From: Leisingera sp. ANG-M7
Lineage (GTDB): Bacteria > Pseudomonadota > Alphaproteobacteria > Rhodobacterales > Rhodobacteraceae
Direction: 5' to 3'
DNA: 64,000 bases
Assembly: GCF_000813965.1 (NCBI RefSeq)
Contig: NZ_JWLI01000008.1
Span: forward strand, 1-64,000
Part shown: positions 24,677 through 43,937 of the stretch, piece after piece
How positions within the stretch are numbered: the first letter of the stretch is position 1
How the letters are laid out: every line of letters starts with the position of its first letter
Translations under genes and position numbers: made by a program
The notes under the pieces: generated by a model
What the model was told of the DNA's origin: nothing
Seen by the model: the letters and a program-made list of their open reading frames with translations, nothing else
Database searches by the model: none

Positions 24677-25321
24677 ATGAGCCAGAGCCGCAGCAACCAG
24701 AAAGATGCCTATGCGCTGATCCTTGAGGCCATCGACTCCGGGATCTACAAGCCGGGCGACCGGCTGGTGGAAAGCGATCTGGCGGAACGCTTTGGGGTGT
24801 CGCGCACGCCGATCCGAGAGGCGCTGCAGCGGCTGGAGACGCAATCGCTGCTGGAGCGTGACGGGCGGTCGCTGATCGTCGCTTCGCTGGACCACAACCA
24901 GATGGCCGAGCTGTATGTGGTGCGGCGCGAGCTGGAGGGGCTGGCGGCGCAGCTGGCGGCGCGCCATGCCACCGAGGAAGAGATCAAAGTGCTGAAGGAG
25001 ATGGTCGAGTCCGACGACAAGCTGATCGGCGACCCGGCGGCGCTGTCCAAGGCCAACCGGCGGTTCCATGAGCAGATTCACCTGGCCTCGCACAACCGCT
25101 ATCTGGTACAGCAGCTGGATCTGGTGCACCGGACCATGGCGCTGATGGCCACCACCTCGCTGGCGGCCGAGGGCCGCAGCGAGATTGCCCAGTCGGAGCA
25201 CAAGGGCATTGTCGACGCGATCAGCCGCCGCGACGAGGCGGCTGCGGGCGAGGCTCTGAAGGAGCACATCTCGATTGCCTTCATGACCCGGCTGAAGCAG
25301 GACGCCAGCGGGCGCGGATAA
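24677..25321 (+). CDS. GntR family transcriptional regulator (FCD type)
   Basis: A 214-aa regulator. The winged HTH spans residues 10-70 (GIYKPGDRLVESDLAERFGVSRTPIREALQRLE), followed by an all-helical FCD ligand-binding domain (about 80-205) with candidate metal-site residues in NRRFHEQIH and SEHKGIVDAI. The ligand is unknown. The ATG at 24677 starts the natural domain. Its 3' end overlaps the convergent glycosyltransferase gene by 41 nt. Confidence 0.92.
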   Translation: MSQSRSNQKDAYALILEAIDSGIYKPGDRLVESDLAERFGVSRTPIREALQRLETQSLLERDGRSLIVASLDHNQMAELYVVRRELEGLAAQLAARHATEEEIKVLKEMVESDDKLIGDPAALSKANRRFHEQIHLASHNRYLVQQLDLVHRTMALMATTSLAAEGRSEIAQSEHKGIVDAISRRDEAAAGEALKEHISIAFMTRLKQDASGRG

Positions 25322-27206
25322 CCCGCCACAGACGGCGACGGGCAGCGGGTTTGATGCCGTGGGCTGTCTTGTCCCAGAAATAGGGGCGGGCCAGCAGCTC
25401 ATGCGCCGCCTTGGCAACGGCAATGGCCCCCATCGGGAAGTAGAGGATCATCGCCGGCGCCCAGGCGGCCAGCCAGGGCCGCCCCATGGCAAAGGCCGCA
25501 GTGATGCTGATTACCAGTCCCAGCCCTTCAAAGAGAACGAGCGTGGCCGCCGCCAGCGTCAGCAGCTGCGGCGGCAGGCTCTCTGCGCCCGGGTGCGGCA
25601 GACCCAGGGTGAACAGCCAGAACGACCAGAGCACGGGGGCAAACAGAAACTGCCCGATGGTGCCCAGAAAGAAGGCCTGAAAGCCAAGAAAACGCTTCCA
25701 GCCCAGATCGGCCAGCAGCCGCAGCGGCTGACGCATGTGCACCAGGTAGGTCACCATGAATCCCTTGAGCCAGCGGGAGCGCTGCCTGATCCAGGGCCAG
25801 GGGCGCCAGTTGGCCTCCTCATAGGTGGTGCTGGGCAGCATTTCGGTGCGGTAGCCCGCCCGGTACAGGCGGACGCCCAGATCGGCGTCCTCGGTGACGT
25901 TGTGGGCATCCCAGCCGCCCAGTTCTTCCAGCACCTCGCGGCGCACGAACATCGTGGTGCCGCCCAGGGGCACCACCAGGCCAAGCCGGGCCATGCCGTC
26001 CAGGACGATGCGGAACCAGCTGGCATATTCCAGTGTGAAGCAGCGCGAGATCCAGTTCGTGCCGGGGTTGTAATAGTCCAGCACCCCCTGAAAGCAGGCA
26101 GTGCGCTTCCCGGCGGAAGCAAAAGCCTGCGCCACCTGGTTCAGCTGGTCTGTCTGAGGTGCATCCTCGGCATCCCAGACCCCGATAATGTCGCCCCGGC
26201 AGAAGTTCAGTGCATAGTTCATCGCCCGCGGTTTGGTTGTCAGCCCGCCGAAGGCCGGGACCTCCACAACCCGGATCCAGGGCGGCAGGCGGGTGTTCTC
26301 CAGCGCGGCCCGGGTGACACTGTCGTGCTCTTCCAGCACCAGGATCACGTCTGTCTGCGCCCGCGGATAGCTGAGTTTCCGGATCCGGCTGAGCAGAGCG
26401 TGGCTGATCTCCGCCTCCTGGAAAAGCGGCACCAGGACCGAAATCATCGGGTATGTGGTGCAGACGGGCGGGGCTACCGCAGGCGCAGCGGATGTCCTGT
26501 CCGCACGTGCCTGCCAAAAAGAGGCGAGCCCGAAGAGTTTGAGTGCGGTGAACAGGAAAACAGTCAGCAAGGCAACTGCGCTGAGGGCGGCGGGAAGTGC
26601 TGAAGGTGCCTGCCAGGCCAGATATAGCGCCGGAGCGGCCAAGGCGGCCAGCAGAGCGCGGCTTCGGGGCGGCCTCAGAGTTCGGCAGCTTTGGCGCGGA
26701 GGCACGCTGCAGCTCGCCTGCCGCACCAGCGCCGGGCTGAAGTGGGCTGTCAGCAAAGCCGTGATTTGCGCTTCACTGGCCAGAACAGGCGTGATGTGTT
26801 CGAATTTGTCCTGCAACTCCTGCTGCAGGGTTTCAAACCGGTCGGGGTGGGCCACGGCCAGGGTGACGGTCCGGCCAAGCTGCATCCAGGGAGCAGCGCA
26901 GTGGCGCAGCCAGAACGCTGCGGGTTTGCAGGCCAGCAGCCGGGTATTGGCCACCTGGCCGGACAGGTCCGCACGTGGCATCCGGTATTGGGAGGAAAGG
27001 GTATCCTGAACCTGATCTTCGCTGGCCAGGCCTTCGGCGACCAGCACCCGGCCAAGCGCCGCCCCTTGATGCTGGCGCAACACCAGCGCCTTCATCATGC
27101 TGCTGCTGTCCACCGGCGGCAGAGCATCCGCTGGCCCGCGCTGCCGCGGGGGCTTTTGGTGCTGCGGCGGCCGGAGCTGCCGCAGCGGCTGTGACACAAT
27201 ACCCAT
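25281..27206 (-). CDS. Glycosyltransferase family 2 with N-terminal GspE/MshE-N domain
   Basis: A 641-aa membrane glycosyltransferase. Residues 40-160 resemble the type II secretion ATPase N-terminal domain (GRVLVAEGLASEDQVQDTLSSQYRMP), which in related proteins binds cyclic di-GMP. Hydrophobic segments at about 185-230 precede the GT2 core: ISVLVPLFQE, DAEDAP (D345/D348), NVTEDADLG and QRSRWLKG (the QxxRW-type motif). About four C-terminal helices follow (500-620). It probably makes or exports an extracellular polysaccharide at the inner membrane. It overlaps the convergent gntR 3' end; the start at 27206 is the best in-frame one. Confidence 0.88.
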   Translation of the reverse strand: MGIVSQPLRQLRPPQHQKPPRQRGPADALPPVDSSSMMKALVLRQHQGAALGRVLVAEGLASEDQVQDTLSSQYRMPRADLSGQVANTRLLACKPAAFWLRHCAAPWMQLGRTVTLAVAHPDRFETLQQELQDKFEHITPVLASEAQITALLTAHFSPALVRQASCSVPPRQSCRTLRPPRSRALLAALAAPALYLAWQAPSALPAALSAVALLTVFLFTALKLFGLASFWQARADRTSAAPAVAPPVCTTYPMISVLVPLFQEAEISHALLSRIRKLSYPRAQTDVILVLEEHDSVTRAALENTRLPPWIRVVEVPAFGGLTTKPRAMNYALNFCRGDIIGVWDAEDAPQTDQLNQVAQAFASAGKRTACFQGVLDYYNPGTNWISRCFTLEYASWFRIVLDGMARLGLVVPLGGTTMFVRREVLEELGGWDAHNVTEDADLGVRLYRAGYRTEMLPSTTYEEANWRPWPWIRQRSRWLKGFMVTYLVHMRQPLRLLADLGWKRFLGFQAFFLGTIGQFLFAPVLWSFWLFTLGLPHPGAESLPPQLLTLAAATLVLFEGLGLVISITAAFAMGRPWLAAWAPAMILYFPMGAIAVAKAAHELLARPYFWDKTAHGIKPAARRRLWRVIRARWRPASAGS

Positions 27207-37214: not shown

Positions 37215-37301
37215 GCGGTCGTGGCGGAATTGGTAGACGCGCAGCGTTGAGGTCGCTGTTCCTTAACCGGAGTGGAAGTTCGAGTCTTCTCGACCGCACC
37301 A
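37215..37301 (+). tRNA. tRNA-Leu (anticodon GAG)
   Basis: The acceptor GCGGTCG pairs with CGACCGC. The anticodon stem CAGCG/CGCTG holds the loop TTGAGGT (anticodon GAG). A long variable arm typical of leucine tRNAs is present, with T-loop GTTCGAG, and CCA is encoded at 37299-37301. Confidence 0.97.
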
Positions 37302-37501
37302 TCATCTTCCTGAAAAGTTTTGCTGTATATCGGCGCCCTGTGTTCTGCGGGGGTATGCCTGTTGCGCTTATATCAGCCATGCGGTCTCTTGCAGTCCGCC
37401 TGAGGCGTTTGACGGTTCCGGCACCCGGGTTCGCAGAGTATAAGGAAACCGCCCCTTCATCTGTAGGCGGGGCCAAGAATTTCGCGATGTGAAGCAGCAG
37501 T

Positions 37502-39769
37502 ATGTCCAGTCCAGTTCCCGGGAAGTGCAGCGGTCAAGTTCTTGAACGTGAATTCAGCGCGCTGTCAGTGGCTGGAGAGGATCTGCTGGATGCTGTGCAA
37601 ATGGCTGGTCCGGCAGCAAGCGCGGCCCGGCTGTTTTTCCGGTCCGGAACACCGCGGGAAATCGTTGCAACCTTGTCCTCGCGCACCGAAGCGGTGCTGC
37701 ATAATTTCGGCGGCGCTCCGGTTCTGGATGTTCCGGCCGGCAGTGCGTTAAGTCTCGCTGCTGACGGGGGGGAGCTTCCGATACCGCTCCATCCGGACGA
37801 GACCGGCCTGTTTGCCGGGCAGAATGTCCTTGCCGCGGTCCGCAACGGGGAAAATGCTGAAACGGCCGCGGATTGGCTGCGCTTTCATGTCTCTCAGCAC
37901 GGCATGCAGGGGGCCGTTATCCTTGACCGGGCGCGGCCGCAGGACAGCCGCCGTTTCATCCGGGATCTGAGCGAGCACGCTGGCAGTATCCCGGGGCTTG
38001 GCAAGGTTGTTGTCATCCATTCGAAGCTGCCCTTGGGCAAAGCGGGGCTGCCGCCTGAGGCGCATCCCTTCAACGTGCCGGGCGCGCCGGGCAAGGACCG
38101 GATGGAAATCCCGCCCGCGGATCCCTGGCAGGCGCCGCTGGGGGAATTCCTGATCTACGAGATCCTGCGGGCGCGGTTCCTGGCGCGGGCGCGTGCGGTG
38201 GCAAACATCGATCTCTTCGACCTGCTGGCTGCGTCTGACGGGCCGAATGTGTTTGACCGCGCCGTAGCAGCCCCTTCAGGCTGCCTGCGCCTGGGCGGGG
38301 TGCAGGCCTATCCCTGGCGAGTGCGTAATGGCGAGGAGCCCGCTTTTGCCGATCATATCTGCACCCAGTTCGATGCTGCGGGCCTGCGGCCGCGCTGGTG
38401 TTTGGCGCCTGCCAAGGCAGGGGCAAATTGCATCTGGCGCCTGATCCGTGTGGTTGGCGCGGAGCCGGATCCCGAACACGTCGCCCGGTTCTACCGCTGC
38501 ATGGCGCTGCGCCACCCGGCGGATACGGTTTCCAGGATCGTGCCGAAAACAAGCCTGGTGGAGACCCCGGAACTGCTGGAGCTGGCAACAGGGTATTTCA
38601 ACGCCAAACCCGTCCGCATTCCCGAAGAGCAGGCGGTTCAGCGCCCTGGCGGCAAGGCGAGAACCGCGATTGTCACCACGATGAAGAACGAAGGGCCCTT
38701 CATACTGGAGTGGCTGGCCTATCACCGGGCAATCGGGGTGGATGACTTCCTCATTTACACCAACGATTGCACCGATGGCACCGACACGATGCTGCAGATG
38801 CTGCAGGAGAAGGGCATCGTGCAGCACCGCGAAAACCCGTTCCGGGGCACGGATCTGAAGCCGCAGCACGCAGCGCTGCAGGCGGCGGAGGAAGAACCGT
38901 TGATCCGCAATGCCGATTGGCTGGTCTGCATGGATGTAGACGAGTTTATCAACATCAAATGCGGCGAGGGGCGGCTGGCGGATCTGTTCGAGGCGGTCGG
39001 TGAAGCCAACATGATCTCGATGACCTGGCGGCTGTTCGGCAACAATGATGTGCGCGACTTTACCGGCGATCTGATCACCCGGGAGTTTACCCGCTGCGCG
39101 CATGAGGTCACCCGCAAGCCGCATCAGGCCTGGGGCTTCAAGACGCTGTTCCGCAACACCGGCATCTTCAAGAAGCTGGGGGTGCACCGGCCCAAGGGCC
39201 TGAAGCCGCAACTGTGGGAGGATATCCGCTGGGTCAACGGGTCCGGCCAGGACATGCCGCGGGAAATGTTCCGCAATGGCTGGCGTTCCTCGATGAGCAC
39301 CTACGGTTACGACCTGGTGCAGCTCAATCACTACGCCGTGCGCAGCGCCGAAAGCTTCCTGGTCAAGCGCGACCGCGGCCGGGTCAATCACGTCGACCGC
39401 GACCAGGGGCTGTCCTACTGGTTCCGGATGAACAACAACGCCGAGGAGGAGCGCTCGATCCAGCGCATGATCCCGGCGCTGGAGGCAGAGATGGCGCGGC
39501 TGCTGGCGGATCCGGAGATTGCCGCGGCGCATGAGTATTCCAGCCGCAAGCACCGCGAGAAGATCGAAGAGCTGAAACCCCGCGATGACATGCTGGAGTT
39601 GTTCCGAGAACTGACCAGCGAAAAGCTGTGCAAACTGTCCCGGATGCATGCGCATTTTGGCGCCAATGTCTTTCTCAGCGGTCCGGGCGTGATTCCGGAC
39701 GAAGTTGCGGAAAAGGAACCGGACAGCGATTTCTGGTTCACAGTAGCGCGCGGCGAGACCACACACTAG
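37502..39769 (+). CDS. Duplicated GT2/GT92-like glycosyltransferase
   Basis: A 755-aa protein with two glycosyltransferase-like halves. The C-terminal copy (about 387-650) has TAIVTTMKNEGPFILEWLAYH, the metal-binding DVDEF motif (D478/D480) and a conserved basic region. The N-terminal copy (about 108-270) shows the same layout (NVLAAVRNGENAETAADWLRFH), but its DxD position reads ANIDLFD, so it is probably inactive. It is first of four codirectional genes after tRNA-Leu, likely for cell-surface glycan synthesis. Cytoplasmic or membrane-peripheral, with no signal peptide. Confidence 0.8.
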   Translation: MSSPVPGKCSGQVLEREFSALSVAGEDLLDAVQMAGPAASAARLFFRSGTPREIVATLSSRTEAVLHNFGGAPVLDVPAGSALSLAADGGELPIPLHPDETGLFAGQNVLAAVRNGENAETAADWLRFHVSQHGMQGAVILDRARPQDSRRFIRDLSEHAGSIPGLGKVVVIHSKLPLGKAGLPPEAHPFNVPGAPGKDRMEIPPADPWQAPLGEFLIYEILRARFLARARAVANIDLFDLLAASDGPNVFDRAVAAPSGCLRLGGVQAYPWRVRNGEEPAFADHICTQFDAAGLRPRWCLAPAKAGANCIWRLIRVVGAEPDPEHVARFYRCMALRHPADTVSRIVPKTSLVETPELLELATGYFNAKPVRIPEEQAVQRPGGKARTAIVTTMKNEGPFILEWLAYHRAIGVDDFLIYTNDCTDGTDTMLQMLQEKGIVQHRENPFRGTDLKPQHAALQAAEEEPLIRNADWLVCMDVDEFINIKCGEGRLADLFEAVGEANMISMTWRLFGNNDVRDFTGDLITREFTRCAHEVTRKPHQAWGFKTLFRNTGIFKKLGVHRPKGLKPQLWEDIRWVNGSGQDMPREMFRNGWRSSMSTYGYDLVQLNHYAVRSAESFLVKRDRGRVNHVDRDQGLSYWFRMNNNAEEERSIQRMIPALEAEMARLLADPEIAAAHEYSSRKHREKIEELKPRDDMLELFRELTSEKLCKLSRMHAHFGANVFLSGPGVIPDEVAEKEPDSDFWFTVARGETTH

Positions 39770-39789
39770 GGCCTCCGGCCCTGGGCAAT

Positions 39790-39819
39790 TTGACAGGTTT
39801 TTGAGTCGAAGGCTAATTT
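39790..39819 (+). promoter_or_regulatory. Candidate sigma-70 promoter of the GT-methyltransferase gene
   Basis: TTGACA (39790-39795), an 18-nt spacer and TAATTT (39814-39819), about 60 nt upstream of the ATG at 39881. Confidence 0.55.
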
Positions 39820-39880
39820 GCGCCAACAAAATAACGCATTCAGGCGGTAGACGTAACGAGGATAACAAAGGGCAGGTATC

Positions 39881-41449
39881 ATGGCACTTCCGGTCATCGC
39901 ATCACTTTGGGTGGGCGCTGAGCTCAGCTGGCTGGAACAGCTTTGCCTGAAGTCCTTTGCCGATAACGGCCACGAGGTGGTTCTGTTCACTTACGATGAG
40001 GTCAAGGGCGTGCCGGAAGGTGTGCGGGTTGCGGATGCCAATGATATCCTGCCTGCGGATCGCATCATCCGCCATGCCAAGACCGGCAGCCCGGCCTACC
40101 ATGCGGATGTCTTCCGCCTGCACATGCTGCGCCAGACGGATTATGTCTGGGCCGATACGGATGCCTATTGCTGCCAGCCATGGGACATCAAGGGCAAGCA
40201 TTTCCATGGCTGGATCTCGGACAAGAAGCCGATGGTCAACAATGGCGTGCTGCGGTTGCCAAAGACCTCCAAGACACTGCAGGCGATGCTGAAATTCACC
40301 AGTGACGAATATCCCATCCCGCCCTGGTACAGCGCGGAAAAACAGGCCGAGCTGCAGGCCCTGAAGGATGCGGGGCAGGGCGTGCATGTGTCGCTGCTGC
40401 CCTGGGGTGTCTGGGGACCGGATGCGCTGACCTGGTTCCTTCAGGAAACCGGCGAGATTTCAAACTCGAAGCCCGGCCATGTGATCTATCCTGTGCCGTT
40501 CAAACAGGCTGGGGTGGTGCTGAACCCGAACCGCCGCAATCAGGCCGCCAAGCATATCCGCAGCGACACCCTGTCGATCCATTTCTGGGGACGGCGGTTC
40601 CGCAATATCGCCGCCAAGTACGGTGGCGTGCCGCCGGAGGGCTGCTATGTGCATGAGCTGCTGGCGAAACACGGGATCAATGCGGAAGAAACCCGCCATC
40701 TGCTGCAGCCCGCACCGGAAACTGAGGTATCCATGACACACGAAATCGATCCAGCGACGCTGGATTTCTCCATGTTCAGCGACCAGGATGTGGCCAACAT
40801 CCTGTTGCAGCGAAGCGAGCTTGCCAGTTCGGGGCAGACCATCCGGGACTGGCTGGCGGGCGATGAACAGCTGCTGCTGGAAGAAGCCAGAACGCAGAGG
40901 GAGCATATCCTGCACGAGTCGATCCGCATCGCGGAACGGGAGTGCCAGTTCTTTCTGAAATCAGCCGATGCGATAGCGCCGAAGCGCTCGGCAGACATCG
41001 GCTGCGGATACGCCTTTGCCAGCCTTGTGCTGCACCGGCGTTACGGCTGCGACGTTGTCCTGATTGATATCGAAGAGGGCAACAGCCGCCATTTCGGGTT
41101 TGAGGGAGAAGGCGCGGGATACACCAGCCTGGAAACCGCGCGGGCCTTCCTGGAAGGCAACGGCGTGCCGGCGGAACAGATCACTTGCATCAACCCCAAG
41201 TCGCAAGATACGGCGGCGCTGGGCGGTTTCGATCTTGTGATCAGCCTTGCCTCCTGCGGGTTCCACTATCCGGTTGGCACCTATGACAGCCTGTTCCGCA
41301 GCCAGATCAATGACGGCGGCGGCATTGTTCTGGATATCCGCAAGGGATCGGGCGGCATTGGCGCGATGAAAACCTACGGTGCGGTCGAAGTGCTTGCAAA
41401 ACATGGCAAATACTCCACGGTCCTGACCCGGGCCGGGCAGGGCGCGTGA
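39881..41449 (+). CDS. Glycosyltransferase-methyltransferase fusion protein
   Basis: A 522-aa protein. Residues 1-270 resemble GT32/DXD sugar-transferase proteins (DVFRLHMLRQTDYVWADTDAYC, with D92-T-D94). Residues 290-520 carry a Rossmann SAM-methyltransferase pattern: motif I ADIGCGYAFASL (D372-x-G-x-G) and motif II VVLIDIE. An internal ATG at residue 286 (base 40736) has GAGG just upstream and starts the second domain, so the gene may be a fusion of two ancestral genes or may make a shorter second product. It has its own candidate promoter and is second in the glycan-like cluster. Confidence 0.75.
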   Translation: MALPVIASLWVGAELSWLEQLCLKSFADNGHEVVLFTYDEVKGVPEGVRVADANDILPADRIIRHAKTGSPAYHADVFRLHMLRQTDYVWADTDAYCCQPWDIKGKHFHGWISDKKPMVNNGVLRLPKTSKTLQAMLKFTSDEYPIPPWYSAEKQAELQALKDAGQGVHVSLLPWGVWGPDALTWFLQETGEISNSKPGHVIYPVPFKQAGVVLNPNRRNQAAKHIRSDTLSIHFWGRRFRNIAAKYGGVPPEGCYVHELLAKHGINAEETRHLLQPAPETEVSMTHEIDPATLDFSMFSDQDVANILLQRSELASSGQTIRDWLAGDEQLLLEEARTQREHILHESIRIAERECQFFLKSADAIAPKRSADIGCGYAFASLVLHRRYGCDVVLIDIEEGNSRHFGFEGEGAGYTSLETARAFLEGNGVPAEQITCINPKSQDTAALGGFDLVISLASCGFHYPVGTYDSLFRSQINDGGGIVLDIRKGSGGIGAMKTYGAVEVLAKHGKYSTVLTRAGQGA

Positions 41450-41587
41450 AAGGTACGGGAGCGTTAACCTTTTGCTGTTATGTGACGGCAATGGTTTGCG
41501 CTCTTGCGGCGCTTCGCTTCGGTTCCGGCGGGCAGCAGGCTGGAGCGCGAAGCTGTCTGGAGAACACAGGAAGGCGGATGAAGACAT

Positions 41588-42961
41588 ATGCTGACCGGTG
41601 AATTCGACTTCAGAACAGTGCTGCCGGAGCTTGATGCTGACGACGTCGGCAGTGTTGCAGATATCAACGGGCAGGCGCCGGAACTGTGTGTCCTGCTGCA
41701 TCACAGGTTCGGCTGCCGCATCGATCTGGTCTGCCTTGACCGCAAGGGCAGGTCCAGAACACCCGAAGCATCGGAGCTGCAAACCTGGCTTTCCCGGCTC
41801 GAACAGGGCGGGGTTGACCGGGAGGCCATCGAAATCGCTGAGGGCGGGGATGAAAACCGCCAGTACGACGTGATCCTCGCGCTGAACAGCTTTGGCGTCC
41901 GGCACAAGATCCAGAACATCAAACCGCTGCTGGATGGCGCGTTGCACCCGCTGAGCCGGGTCGTGATCGAAATCCGTAAGGGGTCTGGCAGCTACCCGTT
42001 TCTGAAGGCCTATGGCGGCTGCAATACGCTGCTGGCGCCCGGGGCAGACAGCAACGGGCTGGCAGTCCTGTCCGCCGAACCTCAGGAGGTGCTCCCCCCC
42101 TCCGGTGAGTGGTCCAAGGTCGCCCGCGGGCTGGCCGGGGAAGAAGGTTTCTTTGACGAGCTTGAGGAGCATTCCTTTCTGTTCATGCCGCGCGGGGAAA
42201 CGCTGGTGGTCACCTTCGACAATCTCGATATTGCGATGACCAAGCGGGACAACCGGCGGCCTTGGGGCTTCAGCTTCATCGAAGCGCAGGGCTGGTCGAT
42301 GCTCGGTGTGATGGCCAACGGCTGGACCTGGTTCCGCCACCAGGAAGTCACCCGCAAGTTCGAGGAGTTGCGCGACAGCGGGTTCTTTCAGCAGTTTTCC
42401 CGCGTTGTGTTTTATGGCGCCTCGATGGGCGGCTATGCGGCAGCGGCCTTTGCCGCGGCCGCGCCGGGCTCCACTGTGTTTGCCATCAGTCCGCAATCCA
42501 CCCTCGACAAGTCCCTCGTGCCCTGGGAAATGCGCTACAAAAAGGTTTGGGACCGGGACTTCTCCGGCCCCTTCGGCGACGCGGTGCAAGCCAGCCAGCA
42601 GGCAGGGGACGTGCATATCATGTTCGACCCTTACGTGGCGGCGGATGCGGCGCATGCGGCCCGGTTCACCGGCTCCAATGTGACGTTCTGGCGGTGCCCG
42701 CTTTTGGGACACCGGCTGGGGTCCTCGTTGCAGCAAATGGGCGTGCTGCAGGAGGTTGCCCGCGGCGCCATCGCCGGGGACCTGACGCCGCATCGCTTCC
42801 ACCGTTTGCTGCGCAAGCGGCACGGCTTTCCCCGGTTCCAGCGAGAGCTTGCCAATCTGGCACTGGATCGCGGCCATCCGGGTCTTGCGAAACAGGTTTG
42901 CGCCTATATCTTGCGGCAGAGGGACGACCGGTTTTTCCGCCGGATGAAGGAACGGCTATGA
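41588..42961 (+). CDS. Methyltransferase-like domain fused to alpha/beta hydrolase
   Basis: A 457-aa protein. Residues 15-150 resemble the methyltransferase half of the preceding protein (VVIEIRKGSGSYPFLKAYGG against IVLDIRKGSGGIGAMKTYGA), but the SAM-binding glycine motif is absent (VADINGQA), so this half is probably inactive. Residues 200-430 are an alpha/beta-hydrolase with an intact triad candidate: GASMGG nucleophile S279, D347 and H375. Similar proteins in Rhodobacterales carry a doubtful PAPS-reductase label; nothing here supports it. It is third in the cluster. Confidence 0.7.
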   Translation: MLTGEFDFRTVLPELDADDVGSVADINGQAPELCVLLHHRFGCRIDLVCLDRKGRSRTPEASELQTWLSRLEQGGVDREAIEIAEGGDENRQYDVILALNSFGVRHKIQNIKPLLDGALHPLSRVVIEIRKGSGSYPFLKAYGGCNTLLAPGADSNGLAVLSAEPQEVLPPSGEWSKVARGLAGEEGFFDELEEHSFLFMPRGETLVVTFDNLDIAMTKRDNRRPWGFSFIEAQGWSMLGVMANGWTWFRHQEVTRKFEELRDSGFFQQFSRVVFYGASMGGYAAAAFAAAAPGSTVFAISPQSTLDKSLVPWEMRYKKVWDRDFSGPFGDAVQASQQAGDVHIMFDPYVAADAAHAARFTGSNVTFWRCPLLGHRLGSSLQQMGVLQEVARGAIAGDLTPHRFHRLLRKRHGFPRFQRELANLALDRGHPGLAKQVCAYILRQRDDRFFRRMKERL

Positions 42962-43034
42962 GATGCGCAGAAGCCCATACGGCTGGCTGCAACCGCGCCG
43001 CTAAGAACAACCCGGGCAGAGGCCGGACAGGATA

Positions 43035-43937
43035 ATGAGCCAGTCGAACACGGACATCCGGGATATTTCCCTGGCCTTCCACATAGGGGCGCCCAATACC
43101 GACAACGGCCAGCTGATCTGGTCGCTGCGAAAGGATGCGCAGCCGCTGCTGGACCGTGGTGTCATGATCCGCCGGCCCGGCACTTATATGACGGCGCTGA
43201 ACCAGCTGATCCGCAAACAGAACAAGGAATTTGTGACTGATCAAGAGCGGGAGGCGCTGCTGGCGGGGCTGGTTAAGGATCAGGCGGTCTCGCGGATCAT
43301 CCTGACCAATTCCGGCTTTCTGGGGATGCCGGGCTGGATGCTGCAGGGCGGGCGGCTGTACCGCAACGCAGGAAGCAATACTGCAGCCCTGCGCGGTCTG
43401 TTTCCCGGCAATCCTTGCGAGTTCTTCCTTGGCCTGCGCAACCCTGCCACCCTGATCGGTCCGGTGTTCAAGTCGCAGTCCGGCAGAACCTGGCGCGAGT
43501 TTGCGGGAGAAACCGACTTTTTGAACCTGCACTGGTCGGAAGTGGTTGAGGATATCCAGGAACGCAATCCAGGCTGCCGCATCACCGTCTGGTGCAACGA
43601 GGAAACACCGGTGATCTGGCCCAGCATCCTGGGCCATGTATCCGGCCTGGGGGACAGTTTCCGTTTCAGTGGCGAGCTGGACATTACACGCGGCATCATT
43701 TCCGAGGCAGGGTATGAGCGGCTGGAGACCTATCTGGCAAGCCGTCCCGGGCTCTCTGAGGACCAACGGGAGCGGGTGCGTGCGCTGTTCCTGAGTTATT
43801 TCCACGATGAGGAGGAGATCGAGGAGGAAATCGATCTTCCCGGCTGGTCGCAAGCGCTTGTGGACGACATGAGCGAGAGCTATGCGGCCGATGCTGAGCT
43901 GATCCGGCACATGCCGGGGGTCACTTTCCTGTCTTGA
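43035..43937 (+). CDS. Sulfotransferase-like protein with altered cofactor loop
   Basis: A 300-aa protein whose N-terminus FHIGAPNTDNGQL parallels the sulfotransferase cofactor loop HIGxPKTGTT, but the key Lys is Asn and the threonines are replaced. The region FFLGLRNPATLIGPVF resembles the second PAPS-site strand. The family link is therefore plausible, but activity as a PAPS sulfotransferase is doubtful. No signal peptide is present. It is last in the four-gene cluster and overlaps the convergent BASS-like gene by 17 nt. Confidence 0.55.
   Translation: MSQSNTDIRDISLAFHIGAPNTDNGQLIWSLRKDAQPLLDRGVMIRRPGTYMTALNQLIRKQNKEFVTDQEREALLAGLVKDQAVSRIILTNSGFLGMPGWMLQGGRLYRNAGSNTAALRGLFPGNPCEFFLGLRNPATLIGPVFKSQSGRTWREFAGETDFLNLHWSEVVEDIQERNPGCRITVWCNEETPVIWPSILGHVSGLGDSFRFSGELDITRGIISEAGYERLETYLASRPGLSEDQRERVRALFLSYFHDEEEIEEEIDLPGWSQALVDDMSESYAADAELIRHMPGVTFLS

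Follow-up and report, generated by a model that had tools for sequence, protein, structure and literature searches.

In the first 64,000 nucleotides of contig NZ_JWLI01000008.1 of Leisingera sp. ANG-M7 (assembly GCF_000813965.1; hereafter, the window), we characterized a module of four genes, A to D, which is conserved throughout the genus and recurs in varying forms across the family Rhodobacteraceae. The genes are codirectional open reading frames (ORFs) on the forward strand (37502-43937), as a sequence-only reading of this DNA had described. The module is real, conserved and variable within the family, and probably makes or decorates a glycan; an O-acetylation step is plausible, and several of its domains are degenerate. 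With slightly better than even confidence, we propose a cytoplasmic module that assembles and O-methylates or O-acetylates a glycan of the cell envelope and that has retained non-catalytic domains. A limited literature search, covering titles and abstract openings among the best-ranked matches of broad queries, found no published description of it. For this large family of marine and host-associated bacteria, the module supplies a specific set of genes with which glycan modification can be tested. It also suggests a function for proteins that records call “hypothetical” or, probably in error, “phosphoadenosine phosphosulfate reductase”, and provides a bacterial example of multiple degenerate transferase domains retained within one pathway.

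Conservation, adjacency and fusion of the module genes

We compared the locus with a set of 101 genomes, comprising its own, 20 of the genus, 40 of the family and 40 of the class. A-B-C-D occurred in one order and on one strand in all 21 genus genomes (21/21). The order was also kept in a genome outside the genus (G023), in which an FkbM-like gene is inserted between B and C and a UDP-sugar dehydrogenase gene lies upstream of the module. Outside the family, the 40 genomes of the class gave few matches (two for A, one each for B and C, none for D). A public record titled Nocardioides marinus DP1N28-1 (JAHVJD010000004.1, L132) carries the Leisingera A-B-C-D locus, and its name looks wrong.

A second sample covered 150 genomes of the family, one per genus. 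Under cuts for a strong match that were chosen after the scores were seen, A was found in 33 genomes and the glycosyltransferase (GT) domain of B in 31, with both in 29, A only in four and B-GT only in two (Fisher p 2e-24, which overstates the evidence because the test ignores shared ancestry). The case for a joint unit rests more on adjacency and fusion. Strong A and B-GT matches lay within 15 kb of each other in 21 of the 29 genomes with both, and on different contigs in the other eight. Counting all matches at E <= 0.001, there were 51 genomes with A-type and 64 with B-GT-type matches, 35 having both (p 4e-6, 150 genomes); the extra matches were lone GTs. Strong matches to the C methyltransferase were present in 12 of the 150 genomes, next to A in every case (12/12), and A adjoined D in 10 of the 31 genomes that had both.

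To these we added a profile scan with B-GT, which returned 373 relatives in genera including Shimia, Rhodovulum, Defluviimonas and Paracoccus; the best 80 loci were kept. Since these loci were picked by B-GT, they are uninformative on the frequency of B itself, and 29 of the 80 are shorter than 20 kb. A was found in 62, the hydrolase domain of C in 69 and D in 34 of these best 80 loci, with A and the hydrolase together in 59 and all three in 31; among the 41 loci that are at least 20 kb long and outside the Leisingera group, the counts for A, hydrolase and D were 35, 35 and 12. Several combinations were fused in a single ORF: B-GT with a C-type methyltransferase and hydrolase in 6/80 loci (in L166 with a mere 26-bit remnant of B-GT), B-GT with a GT2 domain and hydrolase in 4/80 (L159, L160, L162 and L173; 1045-1409 aa), and B-GT with a B-type methyltransferase and hydrolase in 1/80 (L167). 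Some very long fused ORFs contain the B-type GT two or three times (L160:6758-10984, 1409 aa; G124:C442, 1746 aa), and in L156 the B methyltransferase is encoded as a separate ORF.

Recurring neighbors were also seen. FkbM-type methyltransferase genes lay at most 120 bp from a module ORF in eight loci, seven of them between B-GT and C, and a ninth was 1.7 kb away. Relatives of a sugar epimerase lay at most 152 bp from a module ORF in six loci, with one more at 842 bp; each of the two families was checked by Pfam for one representative, and most epimerase relatives are just 23-25% identical to the one checked. Such partners suit a role in glycan work, although most of the 80 loci lack them.

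The sequence-only reading had taken the four genes for a functional unit, had proposed gene order across relatives as a check, and had held that genes scattered in other genomes with no co-occurrence would speak against it. Across the family, their domains are found together, as neighbors and as fusions, with sugar-nucleotide or methyltransferase genes alongside in some genomes, so this objection does not hold for A, B or C; the linkage of D is looser. What did not survive is the idea of a fixed set of four. Outside the genus the combinations vary: the module is family-wide and variable, Leisingera and its near relatives have the particular form made up of exactly these four genes, and D, often located elsewhere, is the loosest member.

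Domain content of the four proteins

Gene A had been described as a duplicated GT. Its C-terminal half exceeds the cut-off of GT2_4 (PF13704; 77.5 bits vs 27.5), also passes that of PF01697, and has the DXD motif in 16/16 aligned sequences. In the N-terminal half, DXD was present in none of 22 aligned members (0/22), 17 of which have D-x-x-D; PF13704 matched none of the 22, and no other relevant Pfam family did. A profile comparison of the two halves was weak (hhalign P 0.027, probability 1.8%), though in the alignment the W-x-x-[YF]-H stretches of the two halves still coincide, as do their DXD regions. We also saw seven stand-alone relatives of the N-terminal half, of which five were scanned and four of the five matched PF13704 below the cut-off (E 0.0005-0.03). 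The in-register halves together with these matches make it likely that A is a duplicated GT with a degenerate first copy. A resembles GT2_4/GT92 glycosyltransferases in its C-terminal half and differs from them in bearing the additional, degenerate copy.

Gene B is indeed the fusion of a GT and a methyltransferase that had been proposed. The family profile of its GT half matches SetA in the PDB (E 7e-6), and matches to Gb3_synth were weak (6/13 members, best E 6e-4) and did not include the window protein, whose GT half had no Pfam match at all. DXD is present in 13/13 aligned members. This motif and the similarity to SetA suggest a relation to GT32-like glycosyltransferases (Gb3 synthase, SetA), from which B differs by the fused methyltransferase. 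Class I S-adenosylmethionine (SAM) methyltransferases are characterized by motif I, D-x-G-x-G; the B domain reads DIG[CAS]G in 18/18 aligned sequences, and the Pfam matches of the window protein are all below the cut-off. The methyltransferase domain of B has a paralogue in C (profile comparison, probability 99.6, E 1e-23), in agreement with the partial paralogy first noted between the two proteins.

In gene C, motif I of the methyltransferase reads DINGQ in the window protein, and D-x-G-x-G is lost in 31 of 35 relatives, the window protein among them. The hydrolase-fold domain that follows has its triad (S279, D347 and H375) in 35/35 C relatives, as well as the sequence GASMGG; D347 is the probable triad Asp, judged from its invariance. 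A Foldseek search with the predicted model ranked first Gap2 of the streptococcal glycosylation-associated complex (E 9.6e-7), a homologue of Asp2, and second CsaC, the meningococcal capsule O-acetyltransferase (E 2.7e-6). Since these two rank at the top, the domain may be a glycan O-acetyltransferase at least as much as a hydrolase. The description of C as a degenerate methyltransferase-hydrolase fusion therefore stands for the methyltransferase and the intact triad, and its second name needs widening. The commonest NCBIfam match in the C family was the capsule protein XcbB/CpsF (15/35), which was weak (best E 0.042); like the weak Pfam match to Asp2 (1/35, E 0.38), it favors an O-acetyltransferase. 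PDB sequence searches gave no match of C to CsaC; alignment A6 matched GmaR (E 0.006), alignment A4 some methyltransferases (E 0.03-0.1), and alignments A2, A3, A5 and A8 nothing convincing. Public records name homologues of the hydrolase domain “phosphoadenosine phosphosulfate reductase” (e.g., L207:9986-10918), which is probably wrong.

Two described systems bear comparison with C. CsaC of Neisseria meningitidis serogroup A, for which the available part of PMC7501274 gives catalytic residues S114, D198 and H228 and a double-displacement mechanism, shares with C the alpha/beta-hydrolase fold, the Ser-Asp-His triad and a glycan context; C differs in its fused degenerate methyltransferase, and we do not carry over to it CsaC's use of coenzyme A or its Gln/His triad extension. 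According to the portion of PMC7948813 consulted, Asp2 acetylates serine-rich repeat glycoproteins, using a Ser-Asp-His triad set in a GxSxG motif (see also PMC5578698). In the accessory Sec systems outlined there (Asp1-3/Gap1-3 with GtfA/B; PMC7948813), GTs work with an Asp2-type alpha/beta-hydrolase-fold protein, as here, whereas the host of our module is Gram-negative and its GTs belong to other families.

Gene D had been called sulfotransferase-like with an altered cofactor loop. Its predicted model (predicted local distance difference test 91) had sulfotransferases as its best fold matches: the only four at E <= 0.001 were tyrosylprotein sulfotransferases and a bacterial sulfotransferase (best 3.9e-5), with modest template modeling (TM) scores of 0.36-0.47, and P-loop kinases ranked next. 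The 5'-phosphosulfate-binding P-loop of sulfotransferases reads K-[ST]-G-T-[ST]. In D, the Lys was found in none of the 20 members aligned, the only ones in which loop status was checked, and its place is taken by C, H, N, F, Y, Q or A, followed by “TD” in 18/20; these 20 members also had no relevant Pfam match and none to the Pfam sulfotransferase family. D therefore shares the fold of sulfotransferases that use 3'-phosphoadenosine 5'-phosphosulfate (PAPS; TPST1/2, 3RNL) and differs from them in this Lys. We rejected D as an active sulfotransferase because the Lys is absent in 20/20. Both the fold and the altered loop hold, and the name “sulfotransferase” is unsuitable for a protein lacking the sulfate-donor loop.

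To estimate constraint, we computed the ratio of nonsynonymous to synonymous substitution rates (dN/dS) for each domain separately across 12 genus loci. Medians were 0.057-0.066 for the C-terminal half of A, the GT of B and the hydrolase of C, 0.099 for D and 0.103 for the methyltransferase of B; the two degenerate domains (the N-terminal half of A and the C methyltransferase) had medians of 0.165 and 0.193. These ratios are rough, as synonymous sites approach saturation in some domains (median dS 0.55-1.10). The degenerate domains evolve faster yet stay constrained, so they are probably in use.

Proposed function and alternative explanations

A simple hydropathy scan found no transmembrane-like segment in A-D (highest 19-residue mean 1.35). 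The N-terminus of B is mildly hydrophobic (10-residue mean 2.08), and this stretch falls inside its GT domain. The proteins are thus most likely cytoplasmic. In the scheme that we infer, including each activity, the order of the steps and the role of the degenerate domains, the GTs of A (C-terminal half) and B (N-terminal half) would add sugars to a growing glycan. The B methyltransferase, joined in some genomes by the FkbM-type enzyme encoded between B and C, would O-methylate it, and the hydrolase-fold domain of C, by way of an acyl-enzyme on its Ser-Asp-His triad, would O-acetylate it or else remove an ester. Binding or scaffolding would be the role for which the degenerate GT, methyltransferase and sulfotransferase-fold domains are retained. 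The glycan would most likely belong to the envelope, as side groups of lipopolysaccharide, capsule or exopolysaccharide; its placement at the cell surface is suggested by the glycan-type partners.

Several observations weigh against this proposal. Many plain esterases score nearly as high as Gap2 and CsaC for the C fold, so that O-acetyltransferase and deacylase are about equally likely. The five CsaC chains within the top 33 matches have modest target TM-scores (0.51-0.58), and the commonest Pfam match of the C family is PF00756 Esterase (21/35; window protein 18.9 bits, cut-off 22). Curated profiles of the CsaC/Asp2 type (XcbB_CpsF, Asp2) matched below the cut-off, and the window protein not at all. 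Ser and His of the triad are both lost in 6/24 hydrolase-domain relatives (alignment A8; e.g., L151:4075-4893 and L159:11596-12420). D-x-G-x-G is kept in 4/35 C relatives (L151, L169, L184 and L186), so the loss of this motif is common rather than general. In one genus genome (G009, L127:11695-12246), C has an in-frame internal deletion of ~276 residues, which removes most of the protein, with A, B and D at full length. The Leisingera genome itself has a second GT2 and hydrolase pair away from the A-D locus (C1:385972-388080), and in the plasmid records of Phaeobacter inhibens DSM 17395 a 62% homologue of A stands alone on pPGA1_262 and a 57% homologue of D alone on pPGA1_78. The flanks of the module differ between genera, and no flippase, polymerase or glycan exporter was recognized among the 30 commonest neighbor clusters, which were judged by eye from the starts of their sequences and mostly unsearched.

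The Phaeobacter orphans would be expected if A-D were independent enzymes that share a neighborhood without joint function, as would the distribution of D, whose family was matched in 125 of the 150 family genomes, of which 94 lacked any strong match to A. A and B-GT occur together far more often than by chance, they are adjacent, and fusions recur, all of which makes this explanation very improbable for the module; for D alone, it may hold. A product other than polysaccharide, namely a glycolipid or a glycosylated small molecule, would suit the small number of genes, the lack of a polymerase or export gene recognizable by eye, and the combination of methylation with acylation. Glycans are favored instead by the types of GT and by the weak similarity to XcbB/CpsF, and no scaffold synthase was recognized, by eye only, among the recurring neighbors, which leaves this product unlikely in our assessment.

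Protein glycosylation deserves similar weight to the small-molecule product, as an outcome we do not expect. Here the glycan would be built in the cytoplasm on an adhesin, a flagellin or another secreted protein, and C would O-acetylate protein-linked sugars in the manner of Asp2. The top structural match of C belongs to the Gap123 glycosylation complex and the triad is the one used by Asp2, but the Pfam Asp2 match (one of 35 C members, E 0.38) is far under threshold, and no candidate acceptor was identified, SecA2/SecY2 and repeat proteins not having been searched for. The degenerate domains invite yet another interpretation, a complex organized by pseudoenzymes, which as a whole we regard as improbable. 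In it, the non-catalytic domains (the degenerate A GT, the C methyltransferase and D) would be paired with the glycosyl, methyl and acyl transfer steps and would either bind the acceptor or keep the complex assembled; the complex would work like Asp1-3 but have an independent origin particular to the family. Relative to these, our preferred proposal remains the cytoplasmic module acting on an envelope glycan. The RcGTA capsule-receptor genes rcc01081-01086, as named in the part of PMC10218006 consulted, were considered for comparison, with no claim of homology.

Locus layout, transcription and surroundings

Coordinates of the genes, domains and putative regulatory elements are listed in Table 1. 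The intergenic gaps are 111 bp (A-B), 138 bp (B-C) and 73 bp (C-D).

Table 1 Features of the A-D locus, in window positions
Feature	Position	Strand	Description
Gene A	37502-39769	+	755 aa; two GT2-like halves
A N-terminal degenerate GT2-like domain	37784-38623	+	no DXD; D-x-x-D in its place
A C-terminal GT2_4/GT92-type domain	38642-39646	+	DXD intact
Gene B	39881-41449	+	522 aa; GT and methyltransferase fusion
B GT32/SetA-like GT domain	39896-40687	+	DXD intact
B SAM-methyltransferase domain	40760-41446	+	motif I intact; Pfam sub-threshold
Gene C	41588-42961	+	457 aa; degenerate methyltransferase and alpha/beta-hydrolase-fold domain
C degenerate methyltransferase domain	41621-42043	+	paralogous to methyltransferase domain of B
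C alpha/beta-hydrolase-fold domain	42092-42958	+	S279-D347-H375 triad; top-ranked folds Gap2, CsaC
Gene D	43035-43937	+	300 aa; sulfotransferase fold without PAPS P-loop
Promoter-like stretch upstream of A, GGTTCCGGC ... TATAAG	37414-37444	+	conserved in 10 genus sequences; putative
TTAAC element between B and C	41460-41480	+	conserved in 11 genus sequences; possible second transcription start

The module possibly forms one or two transcription units. The stretch upstream of A is conserved in the ten genus sequences aligned there and was not among the two promoter sites of a consensus scan, which was itself uninformative (two promoter-like sites vs 1.9 expected; 11 terminator-like vs 7.8 expected). 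Among the eleven genus sequences sharing the TTAAC element, single ones differ by one or two bases; it includes TTAACC at 41464-41469, which we take to be a possible CtrA half-site.

A tRNA-Leu(GAG) gene (37215-37301) ends 200 bp before gene A. In four genus loci (L122, L123, L124 and L145), related ORFs that look integrase-like by eye end within ~400 bp upstream of A, so the tRNA side of the locus may be an insertion site. Despite the nearby tRNA, a recent horizontal island was rejected for the genus, given that A-D have a GC content (0.60-0.63) close to the mean of the window (0.635) and that the genes are present in 21/21 genus genomes. A defense system was likewise set aside, PADLOC giving only a weak methyltransferase match for B (mad2, E 0.0012). 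Elsewhere in the window, the reverse strand encodes a 641 aa glycosyltransferase with an MshEN domain (25284-27206). MshEN is a cyclic di-GMP-binding domain, and this protein may therefore be a signal-controlled polysaccharide enzyme.

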